Shown one piece after another: positions 2,024 through 27,650 of a stretch of DNA of 64,000 nt. The stretch is from Streptomyces sindenensis (lineage in GTDB: Bacteria; Actinomycetota; Actinomycetes; Streptomycetales; Streptomycetaceae), in NCBI RefSeq assembly GCF_014649035.1, contig NZ_BMSG01000002.1, positions 62,001-126,000 on the forward strand, written 5' to 3'. How positions within the stretch are numbered: position 1 is the first letter of the stretch; each line of letters begins with the position of its first letter. A program made the position numbers and the translations under genes. The notes under the pieces were generated by a model. The model had not been told where the DNA came from. It searched no databases and saw only the letters and a list, made by a program, of their open reading frames with translations.

Positions 2024-3298
2024 ATGACATTTGCACAGGGCCCTGTCGTCTGGGCGCTGGTGGTCGTAGCCCTGGTCGCCGTGGGTGCCGTTCTGCGTGC
2101 TCGCGCGATCAACGTCAAGCTGCGCAGGAACCACGCCGAGCTGCGCCAGGAGCGCGACGCCCTCCTCCACCAGCGGGACGAACTCCACGTCGTCCACAAC
2201 ACCCTGCTCCAGCGGCAGTCCGCCGAACTCGCGGAGGTCCGCAAGGACGCCGAGGAGGAGACCAAGGCCGTCCTCAAAGCAGCCGTCCGCACCCTCCAGG
2301 GCCTCGCCGACGAGCAGCAGGTCGTGATCGAGAAGGCCCAGCGCAAGTACGGGGACGACCCCGGGATCCTCGCCGATCTGATGGCCATGGACCACGCCAA
2401 CAGCCAGTTCGGGCGGCGCGCCCAGGGCATTGCCGTGCTCTGCGGCGGCTGGCTCGGCCGGCGCGAGACCGTGGCCTCCGTCTTCGACGTGGCTCGCAGC
2501 GCCCAGGGCCGTATCCGGCACTTCGACCGGGTCCGGGTCAACGGCCAGGTGAACTTCTCCGTCGTCAGCCGCGCGGTCGAACCGGTCGCCGTGGTCCTCG
2601 CCGAGCTGCTCGCCAACGCAACGAACTACTCCGCCCCCGGCACCCCGGTCGAGATCAACATCCAGGCCGTCCCGACGGGCGTCTGCCTCATCGTCGACGA
2701 CGCCGGTCTCGGCATGGGCCAGGAGGAGAAGGACCGCGCCGCGGCCCTCCTCTCCCCCCAGGCCGCGATCAGCGTCTCCAGCCTCGGTATTCCGCCGCAG
2801 TTCGGGTTCGCCGTCTCCGGGATGCTCGCCGCCCGCTACGGCTTCCGGGTCTCGGTGGACTCCGTTTCCCCCTATGGAGGCGTACGCGCGGTGGTCCTCA
2901 TCCCCGACGAACTGCTCACCACCGAGGCGCCGCCCGCCGCCGCCCCGGCCGAGGCGCCCGAAGCGGCGCTCTCCCCGGCGCCGCAGGTCCGGCAGCCGGA
3001 CCAGTGGCAGGCCCGGGCACAGTCCCAGCCCCAGCACCCGGCGCAGGCCCCGGCGCCGACCCCGCTCTTCCCGCCCACCCCGCAGCCGGACACCGCCACC
3101 CAGCCGCTCGCCCAGATCACCACCACCGCCGGCGGGCTGCCGAAGCGTCGTCGCAAGAGCCCGGTCTCCGCGGTGCCATCGGCGGAACCGGAGCCCGTGC
3201 GCAGCAACGAGGAGACCGCGTCGCGACTCGGCGCGTTCCAGCGCGGCACCCGTTCCGGGCGCGACACGACGACGACGGAAGGACCCGAGTTCCAGTGA
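2024..3298 (+). CDS. cvnA: Conservon sensor-like ATPase CvnA
   Basis: Histidine-kinase-like membrane protein, first gene of a conservon, the actinobacterial four-gene unit proposed to act like a G-protein-coupled receptor module. A single N-terminal TM helix (VVWALVVVALVAVGAVL) is followed by a coiled coil (about residues 25-95) and a HATPase_c domain with N-box ELLANATNYSAPGTPV and G1-like DDAGLGMG. The C-terminal 120 residues are Pro/Ala/Gln-rich and probably disordered. No clear phosphoacceptor H-box is seen, as usual for CvnA. About 425 aa, short for the family because it lacks a large extracellular sensor domain. ATG 2024 (upstream GAAGTGAG) is preferred; ATG 2003 is possible. It overlaps cvnB by 4 nt. 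Confidence 0.88.
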   Translation: MTFAQGPVVWALVVVALVAVGAVLRARAINVKLRRNHAELRQERDALLHQRDELHVVHNTLLQRQSAELAEVRKDAEEETKAVLKAAVRTLQGLADEQQVVIEKAQRKYGDDPGILADLMAMDHANSQFGRRAQGIAVLCGGWLGRRETVASVFDVARSAQGRIRHFDRVRVNGQVNFSVVSRAVEPVAVVLAELLANATNYSAPGTPVEINIQAVPTGVCLIVDDAGLGMGQEEKDRAAALLSPQAAISVSSLGIPPQFGFAVSGMLAARYGFRVSVDSVSPYGGVRAVVLIPDELLTTEAPPAAAPAEAPEAALSPAPQVRQPDQWQARAQSQPQHPAQAPAPTPLFPPTPQPDTATQPLAQITTTAGGLPKRRRKSPVSAVPSAEPEPVRSNEETASRLGAFQRGTRSGRDTTTTEGPEFQ

Positions 3299-8372: not shown

Positions 8373-9347
8373 GTGGACGTACCGGTGTGGCTGTGGATCG
8401 TGTTCGCCGTGACCGTCGTCGTCTCGCTGACGGTCGACCTCCTCGCGCACCGCAAGGCGCATGTCATCGGCTTCAAGGAGGCCGGGCTGTGGAGCGCCCT
8501 GTGGGTGGGTCTCGCACTGGTCTTCGGCGGGGTCGTCTTCCTGACGCTGGGGACGACCGCCGGAACGGAGTACACGACCGCGTGGCTGCTGGAGAAGAGC
8601 CTCTCGGTCGACAACCTCTTCGTCTTCGCGCTGATCTTCGCGTATTTCAAGGTGCCCCGGGAGTATCAGCACCGGGTGCTTTTCTACGGCGTGATCGGCG
8701 CCCTGGTGTTCCGGGCGCTCTTCCTGACCGCCGGTGTCGCGGTGGTGAACCGCTTCACGTTCGTCCTGTTCCTCTTCGCCGCGATCCTTTTCTACAGCAG
8801 CTACAAGATCCTCAGCGGCCAGGAGGAGAATTTCGACCCGGGCAAGAGCTTCGCGGTACGGCTGCTGCGGAAGATCATGCCGGTCCAGGACGACTACTCC
8901 GGCACGCATTTCATCGTCCACCAGGAGGGGCGGCGCATCGCCACGCCGCTGCTCGCGGTCGTCGCCGCGATCGAGGCGGCCGACCTCATCTTCGCGGTCG
9001 ACAGCGTGCCCGCGGTGCTCGCGGTCAGCGACGACCTGTTCATCGTCTACACCAGCAACGCCTTCGCGATCCTGGGGCTGCGGGCCCTGTACTTCCTGCT
9101 GGCCGGGCTGCTGGACCGGTTCCACTACCTGAGCCACGGCCTGGCGATCATCCTCGCCTTCATCGCGGTCAAGCTCATCCTCCAGGCGTCCCACAAGATG
9201 ATCAGCACCTCGATCCCGGAGATCCCGTCGCCGGTGAGCCTCGCGGTGATCGTCGTGATCCTGGCCGTGTCGGTGACCCTGAGCATGCGCCGCCCGCCGC
9301 CGGACCGGAACAGCACGGACGCCTCCGGCACCGACGCGAGCAAGTAG
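8373..9347 (+). CDS. TerC/Alx family integral membrane protein
   Basis: Membrane protein of 324 aa with about nine TM helices and the TerC signatures EKSLSVDNLFVFALIF and EAADLIFAVDSVPAVLAV, whose acidic residues are implicated in metal handling. Family members function in Mn2+ export or tellurite/pH stress. GTG start lies behind GGGAGGT, 25 nt after the hydratase-like gene; whether it shares that transcript is unclear. The C-terminal tail is short and Ser/Asp-rich. Confidence 0.9.
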   Translation: MDVPVWLWIVFAVTVVVSLTVDLLAHRKAHVIGFKEAGLWSALWVGLALVFGGVVFLTLGTTAGTEYTTAWLLEKSLSVDNLFVFALIFAYFKVPREYQHRVLFYGVIGALVFRALFLTAGVAVVNRFTFVLFLFAAILFYSSYKILSGQEENFDPGKSFAVRLLRKIMPVQDDYSGTHFIVHQEGRRIATPLLAVVAAIEAADLIFAVDSVPAVLAVSDDLFIVYTSNAFAILGLRALYFLLAGLLDRFHYLSHGLAIILAFIAVKLILQASHKMISTSIPEIPSPVSLAVIVVILAVSVTLSMRRPPPDRNSTDASGTDASK

Positions 9348-24390: not shown

Positions 24391-24714
24391 TCAGCCGGAG
24401 CTGCCGCGCAGTTCCTCGTTGAGGCGCAGGGCCTCCTCGAGCTGGTCCTCCAGGATGACGATGCGGCAGGCGGCCTCGACGGGCGTGCCGGCGTCGACCA
24501 GCTCGCGGGCGCGGGCGGCGATGCGCAACTGGTAGCGGGAGTAGCGGCGATGGCCGCCCTCGGACCGCAGCGGGGTGATCAGACGGGCCTCGCCGATCGC
24601 CCGGAGGAACCCCGGCGTCGCACCGATCATCTCCGCGGCCCGCCCCATCGTGTAAGCGGGGTAATCGTCGTCGTCGAGCCGGTCGGTGGCGTGCGAGGGG
24701 GTCTTCGGGGGCAT
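24391..24714 (-). CDS. MerR-family HTH regulator
   Basis: 107-aa DNA-binding protein. YTMGRAAEMIGATPGFLRAIGEARLITPLRSEGGHRRYSRYQLRIAARARELVDAG is a MerR winged helix (about residues 20-75), followed by a short coiled coil ILEDQLEEALRLNEELRG for dimerisation. It has no effector domain, like the short HspR-type members. ATG 24714 is preferred for its AGAGG site; GTG 24732 would add six residues. It is divergent from the small-RNA promoter at 24915-24961. Confidence 0.85.
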   Translation of the reverse strand: MPPKTPSHATDRLDDDDYPAYTMGRAAEMIGATPGFLRAIGEARLITPLRSEGGHRRYSRYQLRIAARARELVDAGTPVEAACRIVILEDQLEEALRLNEELRGSSG

Positions 24715-24914
24715 CTGCACCTCTTCCGTCACGCTCGCCCGGAGGAGCCGGGCGCCGTACGCCTGCGGGGTGCACCTCGGCCGCGTACCGCTGTTTCACG
24801 TGACTGCACAAGAAACCCTAATCGCCCCGCGAGGCCATGTCTATCGCGGCCGGAACAGATTCGGGTGGCCGCGGAGGGCAGGGCGAATCTGCCCTCACGG
24901 CCCTTCCTCGGATC

Positions 24915-24961
24915 ACTGACCGACCGGTCAGTTGTCGTCAGGAGTACCGCGGGGCCATAAT
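24915..24961 (+). promoter_or_regulatory. TetR-type operator and sigma-70-like promoter of the predicted sRNA
   Basis: The 18-base perfect palindrome ACTGACCGACCGGTCAGT (24915-24932; 8-bp arms, 2-bp centre) has the GACCG-CGGTC form common in actinobacterial TetR operators. It abuts TTGTCG (24932-24937), which is followed after 18 bp by CATAAT (24956-24961). Transcription should begin near 24968, exactly where the first RNA hairpin starts. No TetR gene is adjacent, so the regulator would act from elsewhere. Confidence 0.6.
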
Positions 24962-24967
24962 GCACGC

Positions 24968-25094
24968 GTAGCCCTTCACGCATCCCCCGTCGTGAAGGGC
25001 TACACCCCTGTCCGGAGCCGGTTCCGGGCGGCGCGGGGCGCAGGCTCGCCCACGGGCAAGGGACTCCCCTCGTGGTCCCCTGCCCGTGTTTTTT
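24968..25094 (+). ncRNA. Predicted small RNA (~127 nt) with intrinsic terminator
   Basis: Not coding on any convincing frame. From the predicted start the RNA opens with a perfect 13-bp hairpin (GTAGCCCTTCACG 24968-24980 pairing with 24991-25003; 10-nt C-rich loop containing CCCCC). After a GC-rich middle it ends in a 14-bp hairpin (CACGGGCAAGGGAC 25051-25064 with GTCCCCTGCCCGTG 25075-25088; one mismatch) directly followed by six T. Promoter, two hairpins and terminator make an independent transcript likely. The C-rich loop could pair with Shine-Dalgarno sequences. Alternative: an attenuated leader of the XRE gene at 25164. Confidence 0.6.
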
Positions 25095-25163
25095 CGAGTT
25101 AACAGTGACGTAGAGTGTTTGCGCAAGCTCAGTTCCGACTCCGAGGTGATCGTGGAGGCCCGG

Positions 25164-25676
25164 ATGGCCATGGACGACGGCGACGAACGCGGTCCGGAAC
25201 CTGTTGGCACCCCCGGCCCGGACGAGCTGCCCCGCCTCGACTCGCTGCGGGAAAAGGTCGAGTACATGGTCGAGAAGACCTTCCCCGGCCGGAAGATCTC
25301 GGGCCGGGTCTTCGCCGAACTGGTCCGCGACCGCGGCGGCTCGCTGTCGCACAGCTACTTCTCCAACATCCTGGCCGGCAAGGTCACCCAGCCCTCCGAG
25401 GACATCCTCAAGGCCCTCGGGCTGGGGTTCGGCGTGGACTGGCGCTTCTTCAAGGAGGAGTCCGAGGTCGTCGACGACGTCGTCGCCGGGCTCCAGTTCC
25501 TGGCCAAGCGGCGCACCGGGGAGATCAGCGGAGTGGCCGGCCGGGGCCTGGACGACGACGGGCTCCCCCCGGAACTGCTGCGGTTCGCCCTGTCCCTGCT
25601 GGAGGACGCCGCCCGGGAGAAGGACGGCTCCGGGGGCGGCGGAGCGGGCGGAGCGGTGGGAGAGATTCCGCGGTGA
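25164..25676 (+). CDS. XRE-family transcriptional regulator
   Basis: 170-aa DNA-binding protein. The N-terminus is acidic. An HTH spans about residues 35-85 (FAELVRDRGGSLSHSYFSNILAGKVTQPSEDILKALGLGFGVDWRFF), and the C-terminus has a helical region and a Gly-rich tail. ATG 25164 follows GGAGG; the frame is open to 25086. TAGAGT at 25111-25116 may be its -10, just after the sRNA terminator. It is followed by an ImmA-type protease gene, the partner that in ICEBs1-like systems cleaves the XRE repressor. Confidence 0.85.
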   Translation: MAMDDGDERGPEPVGTPGPDELPRLDSLREKVEYMVEKTFPGRKISGRVFAELVRDRGGSLSHSYFSNILAGKVTQPSEDILKALGLGFGVDWRFFKEESEVVDDVVAGLQFLAKRRTGEISGVAGRGLDDDGLPPELLRFALSLLEDAAREKDGSGGGGAGGAVGEIPR

Positions 25677-25715: not shown

Positions 25716-26303
25716 ATGTCCCTGCGGAAACTGCGGAAAGAGTGCGAGGCCGGGCTCGCCGACCTTCCCCTCCCGGTTCCCTTCACGCTGGACGGGCTCG
25801 TCGCGAACATGGAGGCGGCCGGCGGGCGCACGATCCGGCTGCACGAGATGCCGGACCGCCTCGCCCGCGTCAACACCGCCTGCGGGCTGCGGCTGAAGGC
25901 GGGCCCCACCAGCCTCGTCCTCTACCGCCGCAGACCGACCGCGTACCAGACCCAGCACGTGATCCTGCACGAGCTGTGCCACGAGTGGTTCGACCACGGC
26001 ACGACCCTCGACGCGGAGCAACTGCGCACGCTCCTCCCGGTCTTCGACACCTCGCTGATCGCCCGGATGATCTCCCCGGCCGCCGCCGAGTCCTTCGTCT
26101 CCGGCGGCGGCACCATCCAGGCCCGCGCCCAGTACGACACCCATGACGAACGCATGGCCGAATTCGGTGCCTCCCTGATCCCCCGGATGGCGCGGGACCT
26201 CACCACCGATGACATGGTGGGGCGGCTGGACAACTCCCTGTCCCGCCCGGTGGCCCACCGGCGGCGCGGTCTCTTCCCCCGACGACGGTCCGGCGATACC
26301 TGA
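25716..26303 (+). CDS. ImmA/IrrE-family metallo-endopeptidase
   Basis: 195-aa protein with the zinc-protease signature HELCH (residues 85-89) inside QHVILHELCHEWFDH. IrrE/ImmA enzymes activate gene expression by cutting a cognate XRE repressor; the adjacent XRE gene is the obvious candidate substrate. The gene has its own leaderless-type promoter, TAGCGT at 25703-25708, 7 nt before the ATG, so it can be made independently of the regulator. The extreme C-terminus is Arg-rich. Confidence 0.87.
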   Translation: MSLRKLRKECEAGLADLPLPVPFTLDGLVANMEAAGGRTIRLHEMPDRLARVNTACGLRLKAGPTSLVLYRRRPTAYQTQHVILHELCHEWFDHGTTLDAEQLRTLLPVFDTSLIARMISPAAAESFVSGGGTIQARAQYDTHDERMAEFGASLIPRMARDLTTDDMVGRLDNSLSRPVAHRRRGLFPRRRSGDT

Positions 26304-26381
26304 CACGTGCCACCGCGCTCCGCCCGAGGGCCCCGCCCCGCACCCCCGATTCCGCACCCCGACCCGAGGACGAACACCGCC

Positions 26382-27650
26382 GTGACCTCCCTCGACCTCG
26401 CCGGCTACCTCATAGCGGGCCTGATGACGGCCGTTGCCCTGTGGCGTATGCCCGCCGCCCTGTGGGGGGACGAGGAGGACCGCAGACGCCGGGCGCTGTG
26501 GGGCTGCTACGCCGGATTCGCCATCGCCCTGTGGACGAAGACCGAGGCCGTCCGCACCGGCCTCAACAACAGCGCCGTCACCGACCTCGCCGTCCTCATC
26601 AAGCACTACACCGCCACGGTGGCAATTCTGGCCATCCTCAGTTACATCGTGGCCATCTACGGCAGCTACCCCGAAGAGGGCGCGGCCCCCCGCCACGTAC
26701 GGTTCGCGCGGCTCGTCCAGCGGCTGGCGGCCAAGGCCTCCGTCGCCACGCTGATCCTGCTGACCGTCCTGTTCTTCACCGTGGTCGACCGCTCCGAGCC
26801 CTCGGACCGCTTCGTCTCCGACCACGCCGGGGAGTGGGGCGCCACGCTCTACATGAGCGTCTTCTACCTCTACCTCGGGGCCGCGTCCGCCGTGTGCGCC
26901 TTCCAGTGGGCGCTGGCCACCCTCGACTCCCGCCGCCGCCATCTGCGCGTCGGGCTCGGCATGATGACGTTCGCGATGTTCATCGGCGTCGGCTACACCG
27001 TCAGCCGCACGCTCTTCCTGTGGATCAGCGTCGTCGACGAGCCCACCGAGGCGTTCGCCCTGCGCTTCGACCGGATCACCGAGGCCGCGCAACTGGTGCT
27101 GTTCGCCTTCTTCGCCCTCGGCGCCTCCGTCCCGGCGTTCGCGGCCGGGGCGCGCCGGGCCAGGCTGTGGCGGGCCCAGGTCAAACTGCACGCCCTCTGG
27201 TTCGAGCTGATGGCCGCGTTCCCGGAGCAGCCGTTCGACCCGCCCGCCTCGCTGGCCCGCGAGCTGACCCGGTTCAACGTCCCGGCCGACCTGCGGGTGG
27301 ACCGCTGGGCCGCCGACATCGCGGACGCGGTGGAGAAGCTGCGCCACTACGCCCCCGAAGGGCTGCTCGCCACCGCCGAACAAACCGCCGCCGGGCCCCG
27401 GAGCCGCGAGGGCCTCGCCGACGCGTACTGGATCAGGGCCGCCCTCCTCGCGAAGGCCTCCGGCGCCCCGGCCGGCTCCGCCTCGCCGGTCGCCGCCCAG
27501 CAGGCCACGGACCAGGACGGCGAGGTGGCCCGGCTGGTCCGGGTGGCCGCCGCGTACCGCACGGTCGACGAGGACCGCGCCCGCGCGGTGCTCGCCGCCG
27601 CCACGGCCGGCCCGGCCGCACCGCCCCGGACGACGGAGAGGACCGCATGA
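26382..27650 (+). CDS. Multi-spanning membrane protein (MAB_1171c-like)
   Basis: About 422 aa. Seven TM helices occupy the first 260 residues. A soluble C-terminal part follows (RRARLWRAQVKLHALWFELMAAFPEQPFDPPASL...), which resembles the putative transporter family often found next to XRE and ImmA genes in streptomycetes. Function unproven; a sensor or exporter role is inferred from context only. GTG 26382 (upstream GAGGACG) is preferred over GTG 26307. It overlaps the next gene by 4 nt (ATGA). Confidence 0.7.
   Translation: MTSLDLAGYLIAGLMTAVALWRMPAALWGDEEDRRRRALWGCYAGFAIALWTKTEAVRTGLNNSAVTDLAVLIKHYTATVAILAILSYIVAIYGSYPEEGAAPRHVRFARLVQRLAAKASVATLILLTVLFFTVVDRSEPSDRFVSDHAGEWGATLYMSVFYLYLGAASAVCAFQWALATLDSRRRHLRVGLGMMTFAMFIGVGYTVSRTLFLWISVVDEPTEAFALRFDRITEAAQLVLFAFFALGASVPAFAAGARRARLWRAQVKLHALWFELMAAFPEQPFDPPASLARELTRFNVPADLRVDRWAADIADAVEKLRHYAPEGLLATAEQTAAGPRSREGLADAYWIRAALLAKASGAPAGSASPVAAQQATDQDGEVARLVRVAAAYRTVDEDRARAVLAAATAGPAAPPRTTERTA

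Follow-up and report, generated by a model that had tools for sequence, protein, structure and literature searches.

Introduction

Multi-copy small RNA (sRNA) families such as LhrC and Qrr have several copies with one common conserved unpaired seed. In the actinobacteria, sRNAs with C-rich loops have been described. The 6C family (RF01066) is characterized by two stem-loops with C-rich loops according to the available text of PMC8388888, and the title of a reference within that paper indicates that the 6C RNA of M. tuberculosis binds mRNAs via its C-rich loops. In the available text of PMC3765725, the Streptomyces sRNAs scr5583 and scr1434 and their homologues are reported to form conserved stem-loops with C-rich loops and to be detected by Northern blot, and svr5535 of S. 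venezuelae is reported as a species-specific sRNA of 41 nt with a single stem-loop.

Here we examine a locus at positions 24915 to 25094 of a 64,000-nucleotide stretch of Streptomyces sindenensis DNA (the window). When analyzed with Rfam 15 at gathering score, the window was found to have only a tRNA, four stretches with the core locus described below likewise had only a tRNA, and 17 loci of the hairpin class had no match. With a lax threshold, matches were at chance level only (sbcD at E 1.3 and Scr3920 at E 4.8, both on the minus strand). The loop class was not found by text searches of the literature outside of subscription papers and supplements. We hold with moderate confidence that the locus is a dedicated gene for a structured small RNA of about 127 nt, as predicted by comparison of related loci, and that this RNA is a member of a wider loop class.

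Results and Discussion

Predicted transcription unit upstream of the XRE-like gene

The locus is flanked by a divergent MerR-type gene (24391 to 24732, minus strand), which was regarded as a neighbor only based on domain search and locus comparison, and by an XRE-like gene (about 25164 to 25676, plus strand; start codon chosen by eye) with an HTH_31 match at E 0.031, which is below cut-off. An HExxH protein (25716 to 26303; ORF list and Pfam) and a DUF6545 protein (26307 to 27650; PF20182, E 1.9e-19) are encoded further downstream on the plus strand. The original prediction had described the spacer as free of genes, and no convincing gene was detected between the MerR-like and XRE ORFs; mechanical ORFs do span the spacer (e.g., 24938-25267, minus strand). 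The HExxH protein had been labeled ImmA in the original prediction, and no ImmA domain was found in it by Pfam search.

The proposed promoter, TTGTCG-N18-CATAAT (24932 to 24961, plus strand), was recovered by promoter scan as the sole sigma-70-like match within 1.2 kb, compared to an average of 0.0 for shuffled sequences, and its -10 box was kept across loci. The perfect 13-bp hairpin claimed for the 5' end (24968 to 25003, plus strand) was confirmed by folding, conservation and covariation; it presents the near-invariant loop CAUCCCCCGU and begins six nt after the -10 box, with the predicted +1 at 24968. This hairpin is followed by a variable linker of the predicted RNA (25004 to 25050, plus strand), as delimited by alignment of full units and column identity, and by a terminator hairpin (25051 to 25088, plus strand) with the conserved C-rich loop region ACTCCCCTCGTGG, which was supported by alignment and covariation. 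A six-T tract (25089 to 25094, plus strand), detected in the sequence and by terminator scan, marks the predicted 3' end. The hairpin and six T of this terminator stand as first described, and the 14 pairs assigned to its stem do not, the stem having 13 standard pairs and one A.C mismatch.

Folding of the 127-nt unit was found to be stable (z = -4.66), with none of 200 shuffles equally stable. The reverse strand folded equally well (z = -5.06), and thus folding cannot tell the strand. Terminator scan detected one site compared to 0.9 expected from shuffles, which is chance level, such that the call of a terminator rests on its conservation. The unit has its own promoter and its own terminator, as is characteristic of an intrinsically terminated sRNA, at the level of sequence and conservation. 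We infer that the hairpin RNA is transcribed. An HrdB-type promoter would start transcription at the first base of the 13-bp hairpin and, past the variable linker, the second C-rich-loop hairpin and U tract would end the RNA before a separate XRE promoter.

Conservation and covariation of the 5' hairpin

The 36-nt hairpin was detected by pattern search (up to three mismatches) in 45 of 392 Streptomyces genomes with one copy in each, and the reversed pattern was found in none. The hairpin was exact in 38 of these genomes; the other seven had variants that retained all 13 standard pairs, and three variants were altered on the 5' side of the loop. BLAST of 186 bases of the locus, an approach that used no hairpin pattern, matched 47 of 199 Streptomyces genomes. 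Thirty of these were matched by long matches and counted as hairpin genomes, and the 17 with short partial matches were left out. By this approach, the 36-nt hairpin was unchanged in 28 of the 30 loci, and the remaining two had three and five changes with the stem kept. Sampling at the level of the family revealed the hairpin in 16 of 249 genomes and one of 17 genera. In a named collection, 79 stretches with the locus were found under titles of Streptomyces or [Kitasatospora] papulosa, S. griseus and S. anulatus being among them.

A total of 139 loci was reduced to 99 by identical surroundings, and a given genome may be represented twice among them. Column identity over 98 loci was 0.98-0.99 for the hairpin (a value biased upward, as most of the 99 loci were gathered by the hairpin pattern), compared to 0.84-0.91 for the -10 region, 0.55-0.67 for the promoter spacer and 0.42-0.66 for the sequence downstream of the hairpin. 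Six forms of the hairpin were present among the 99 loci, none with a broken pair and one with an altered loop base, and the stems of these forms were related by steps of A-U to G-U to G-C, C-G to U-G, and U-A to A-U. CATAAT or CATACT was located 6 to 8 nt before the hairpin in all 98 usable loci (6 nt in 93, 7 nt in four and 8 nt in one), the 99th locus being too short.

Full units were aligned from 54 of the 78 loci with a terminator (alignment A1), with units longer than 150 nt, without TTTTTT or identical to others excluded. In this alignment, 96.9% of cells were paired and the first stem was 100% paired. The compensatory changes that had been called for were detected in both stems, at seven pairs and with 32 cells changed on both sides, a level not reached by any of 500 shuffles. 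Conservation of the hairpin appears to be more than chance, and the two stems kept in relatives with compensatory changes support, by comparison, the original prediction of a stand-alone small RNA of about 127 nt.

Interrupted dyad at the -35 box

The sequence ACTGACCGACCGGTCAGT (24915 to 24932) had been presented as an 18-base perfect palindrome. Its reverse complement was found to differ at two central bases, revealing instead an imperfect 8-2-8 dyad, ACTGACCG-AC-CGGTCAGT, of which the final T coincides with the initial T of the -35 box. A similar dyad (CTGACCG-NN-YGGTCAG with up to two mismatches) was found 35 to 36 nt before the hairpin in 69 of the 99 unique loci, including 49 of the 78 with and 20 of the 21 without a terminator; a second copy with up to two mismatches was not detected in the genome. 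The natural reading of a dyad at the -35 box is a putative repressor site, and a repressor acting via this dyad may control the RNA in part of the genus. The site could be a TetR-type operator, with the assignment to TetR being a guess.

The statement that the operator has no adjoining regulator gene was inexact, since the divergent MerR-type gene is about 180 nt upstream. The MerR gene is not an obvious partner of the dyad, and several dyad loci were without a MerR gene. The dyad was also considered as a MerR site and rejected: of ten MerR loci without the hairpin, nine were without a dyad (up to two mismatches) and the tenth had one degenerate match elsewhere.

Association of the terminator with the XRE gene

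The terminator hairpin was present in 78 of the 99 loci and absent in 21. An XRE gene, the usual downstream partner of the two-hairpin form, was found in 75 of the 78 loci with a terminator compared to none of the 21 without. Of the three exceptions, two loci end before an XRE gene could appear and one (L077) shows none. With 30 loci lacking the dyad and 21 lacking the terminator, neither element belongs to the core. When 199 genomes were compared, 21 had the hairpin and XRE, nine the hairpin only, one XRE only and 168 neither (Fisher p about 2e-20, uncorrected for kinship); two further genomes with distant XRE homologues (46-52% identity) were left out of this comparison. In genome G010, XRE and the terminator were kept and the hairpin was not seen. 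The distribution of these elements indicates two modules, the 5' hairpin and the terminator-XRE block, which can be separated and are usually found together.

A conserved block, GAGTTAACAGTGACGTAGAGTGTTTGCGCAAG (25096 to 25127, plus strand), is located past the U tract and is a probable XRE promoter/operator based on its conservation before XRE genes. The core of this block was present with up to three substitutions in 76 of the 78 terminator loci. A block of this type was also detected before one distant XRE homologue (L179), which has neither hairpin, and by eye no such block was found before the other (L180). The block looks like a self-regulated XRE promoter.

The strong association of the two-hairpin form with XRE (75 of 78 loci versus none of 21, and 21 of 199 genomes with both) would also be expected of an XRE-operon leader, with an attenuator composed of the hairpin and terminator and with expression of XRE and the following genes by readthrough. 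Such a leader would fit the loci without a terminator as well, where the hairpin precedes a PAP2 gene or some other gene by about 100-300 nt. We consider a leader improbable, as XRE has a conserved promoter-like block of its own, G010 retains the terminator and XRE without the hairpin, and the hairpin head is found elsewhere without XRE. A plain leader, which the original prediction had named as the alternative to a stand-alone RNA, thus appears disfavored by the block after the terminator and by the occurrence of the hairpin head without XRE.

Recurrence of the loop on different stems in Streptomyces chromosomes

The dedicated small RNA gene that we favor was further compared at the level of its loop. 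The loop 12-mer GCATCCCCCGTC was found three times in the genome, in each case within a hairpin of different stem (13, 15 and 7 bp), and its reversed pattern was not found. The second copy (L671, about 8461-8509; G000:C2:166466-166497) has the 15-bp stem and is directly after a DUF5926 gene; its stem was found again in seven other genomes that were read. The third (L262 near 1501, minus strand; G000:C23:88592) has the 7-bp stem with CATACT upstream. A covariance model built on the full unit (R1) had weaker matches elsewhere, which carry the exact loop on a different stem apart from a few whose loops differ; in a class-wide sampling of 246 genomes, R1 matches were strong in three Streptomyces only and weak in twelve others.

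A second model (R2), of the 32-nt hairpin, was built from 41 sequences that had been selected on both loop and stem, and the E-values of such a model are rough. Its alignment (A2) included 41 of 42 listed hairpins and only stems of at least 11 bp, such that its 100% pairing is by construction; L301 was excluded as a coding chance occurrence by appearance. Among the matches listed, with an E-value limit of 1e-3, R2 detected 341 of the 343 Streptomyces genomes in a search run within the genus. The hairpin was present in all 20 match sites that were fetched, and eight of these, including a site in the window's genome, have one common stem. A DUF5926/SEC-C gene is directly upstream in six of the eight and absent from this position in the other two. 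The hairpin of this core locus is preceded by a promoter-like stretch of one of two types, TTGTTACCGT (exact or nearly so) or TTGTTAGCCT. The suggestion of a near-universal core copy is based on the R2 scores and the eight loci read.

Occurrence of the loop in viral contigs and plasmids

The IMG/VR viral contigs were searched with the loop as a 14-mer with CG ends, and at least 121 usable occurrences were detected, of which 96 had stems of 2-7 bp as by chance and 25 had stems of 9-16 bp. By contrast, a scrambled-loop control gave at least 118 occurrences, none with a stem above 6 bp among the matches listed. When the loop was combined with a -10-like box (TGCCANACTG) and no stem was required, all 31 of the stretches found were hairpins, with 9-17 perfect pairs in 28 and a single internal mismatch in the remaining three. 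The distance from the end of the box to the stem was 4-7 nt in 24 of the 31. Based on our own rough ORF scoring, the viral hairpin was often 30-60 nt past the upstream stop codon and before a convergent or same-direction gene. The exact stem-loop pattern of the window hairpin was not found in the viral contigs, only the loop being common. A laxer pattern (box and half loop) was discarded as mostly chance, with stems of at least 8 bp in 7 of 118 occurrences, four of them already known.

BLAST of the locus against plasmids and phages gave no match, short queries did not recover the exact loop from any isolated phage record, and an L250-type stretch had no match to phage records. A 50-nt stretch of viral type matched three Gordonia phage records, and the example read has the loop GCATCCCCTGTC with one letter changed. 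A similar stretch was found in seven Streptomyces plasmid records. Among the three that were read, one has the exact loop, and the other two have the box and hairpin with a different 5' part of the loop and the same CCCCCGUC. Thus, the loop is near-invariant rather than invariant, as evident from the plasmid and rare chromosomal variants. Its constant core is CCCCCGUC, which is kept by these variants, and exact-loop searches understate the variety of the class; the exact loop was required in most searches, and its constancy is in part from this selection. Two plasmid hairpins (L524 and L526, near 3001-3070) were observed after a CACACTG box, with loops that retain CCCCCGTC and differ on the 5' side. 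Separately, three copies (L250 near 704, L399 and L401) were observed immediately ahead of a small XRE-like gene, a second connection between the hairpin and HTH genes.

Termination and DNA-level function were weighed as explanations for these copies. Little credence was given to the view that the copies in viral contigs and at the core locus act as weak or factor-dependent terminators and follow a promoter-like box by chance. Enrichment of T in the 8 nt after the viral hairpins (33.5% compared to 19.1% further on) would be consistent with termination, as would the location of many viral copies between convergent genes, a position at which terminators are expected as well; however, a terminator requires no near-invariant loop and no -10-like box, the window hairpin has no T-rich tail of its own, and scanning of the core-locus copy found no terminator. 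A DNA element (operator, cruciform or site of a phage protein) rather than an RNA was judged to have a slimmer chance. A palindrome kept by compensatory changes fits DNA as well, and several viral copies are, by eye, after tyrosine recombinase-like genes. The stems speak against such an element: over 27 distinct viral stems of 11 positions each, 280 Watson-Crick, 13 G.U, one A.C and three other pairs were counted on the predicted RNA strand, and this excess of G.U over A.C favors an RNA over a DNA function. The corresponding counts of G.U and A.C were 18 to 0 over the 99 loci of the window type, where events are few, and the fixed spacing of the -10 box and the conserved, asymmetric loop are likewise not readily explained by a DNA element.

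Returning to an RNA hairpin, we have high confidence in the existence of a wider class of GCAUCCCCCGUC-loop hairpins. Comparison of sequences establishes a loop that recurs on different stems, its strand, the spacing of its -10-like box, and its occurrence in chromosomes of Streptomyces, in predicted viral contigs and in at least one plasmid. The recurring loop points to an undescribed RNA class.

Possible function of the loop

In the mechanism that we propose, the first hairpin would be the working part of the RNA and one copy of the wider class, whose members would be RNAs with first bases that form a long, varied stem presenting the near-invariant loop GCAUCCCCCGUC (core CCCCCGUC). As the loop is nearly constant on stems that vary, it is the likely contact surface. 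It may act in trans, either by pairing with G-rich mRNA stretches (translation start regions) or through a single conserved binding partner. Based on the T enrichment after the hairpin, one-hairpin copies may end right there as RNAs of 40-50 nt, instead of having the linker and terminator of the window copy.

Pairing through the loop, proposed by analogy to 6C RNA, is tentative and carries somewhat less than even confidence. The original prediction had likewise suggested that the CCCCC loop could bind Shine-Dalgarno regions. Pairing with G-rich mRNA would be the simplest mechanism given the 6C precedent, and a protein receptor would fit as well. Loop complements were not enriched in 29 downstream operons (6 compared to a shuffled mean of 6.0, and 5 compared to 16.9), and an exact complement of the loop 12-mer was not found in the genome outside the three hairpins. 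In a more speculative reading, which we view as rather doubtful, GCAUCCCCCGUC hairpins would serve as an RNA signal throughout the genus and be recognized by a single dedicated receptor, either a protein that binds RNA or one core RNA. Nearly every Streptomyces would produce this signal from a core locus, some would add the XRE-tied two-hairpin form, and the phage and plasmid copies would mimic, feed or titrate the receptor.

If transcribed, the hairpins would represent an RNA class outside of Rfam that is matched in nearly all of the Streptomyces genomes sampled and is also found in predicted phage DNA, and the near-invariant loop would mark an interaction surface. Few trans-acting RNAs of Streptomyces have known targets, and one loop on many stems would provide a direct handle for finding partners as well as a testable case of host-phage traffic at the RNA level.

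Comparison to described small RNAs

A divergent 6C RNA is a very improbable identity for the locus: the two hairpins with C-rich loops, actinobacterial origin and similar layout are shared, but RF01066 had no match in 24880-25140 even at E 10, and the genome has a separate 6C copy from which the loop and stems differ. This 6C RNA of the genome (L150; G000:C10:127154-127229) scored 47.6 bits, narrowly above its cut-off of 47.

The small RNA that we propose resembles 6C RNA in having two stem-loops with C-rich loops and differs in loop sequence and in the lack of a model match. Where 6C RNA is worded as two stem-loops each with six or more C, the longest C runs in the loops of the locus are five and four, and its loops have about six C in all. 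The likeness of the class to scr5583 and scr1434 is in the C-rich loop, compared by description rather than by sequence within the available text. Similarly, the size and single stem-loop of svr5535, as described there, fit a one-hairpin member of the class. Compared to LhrC and Qrr, the loop class is distinguished by stems that differ in sequence and by copies that are also present in viral contigs.
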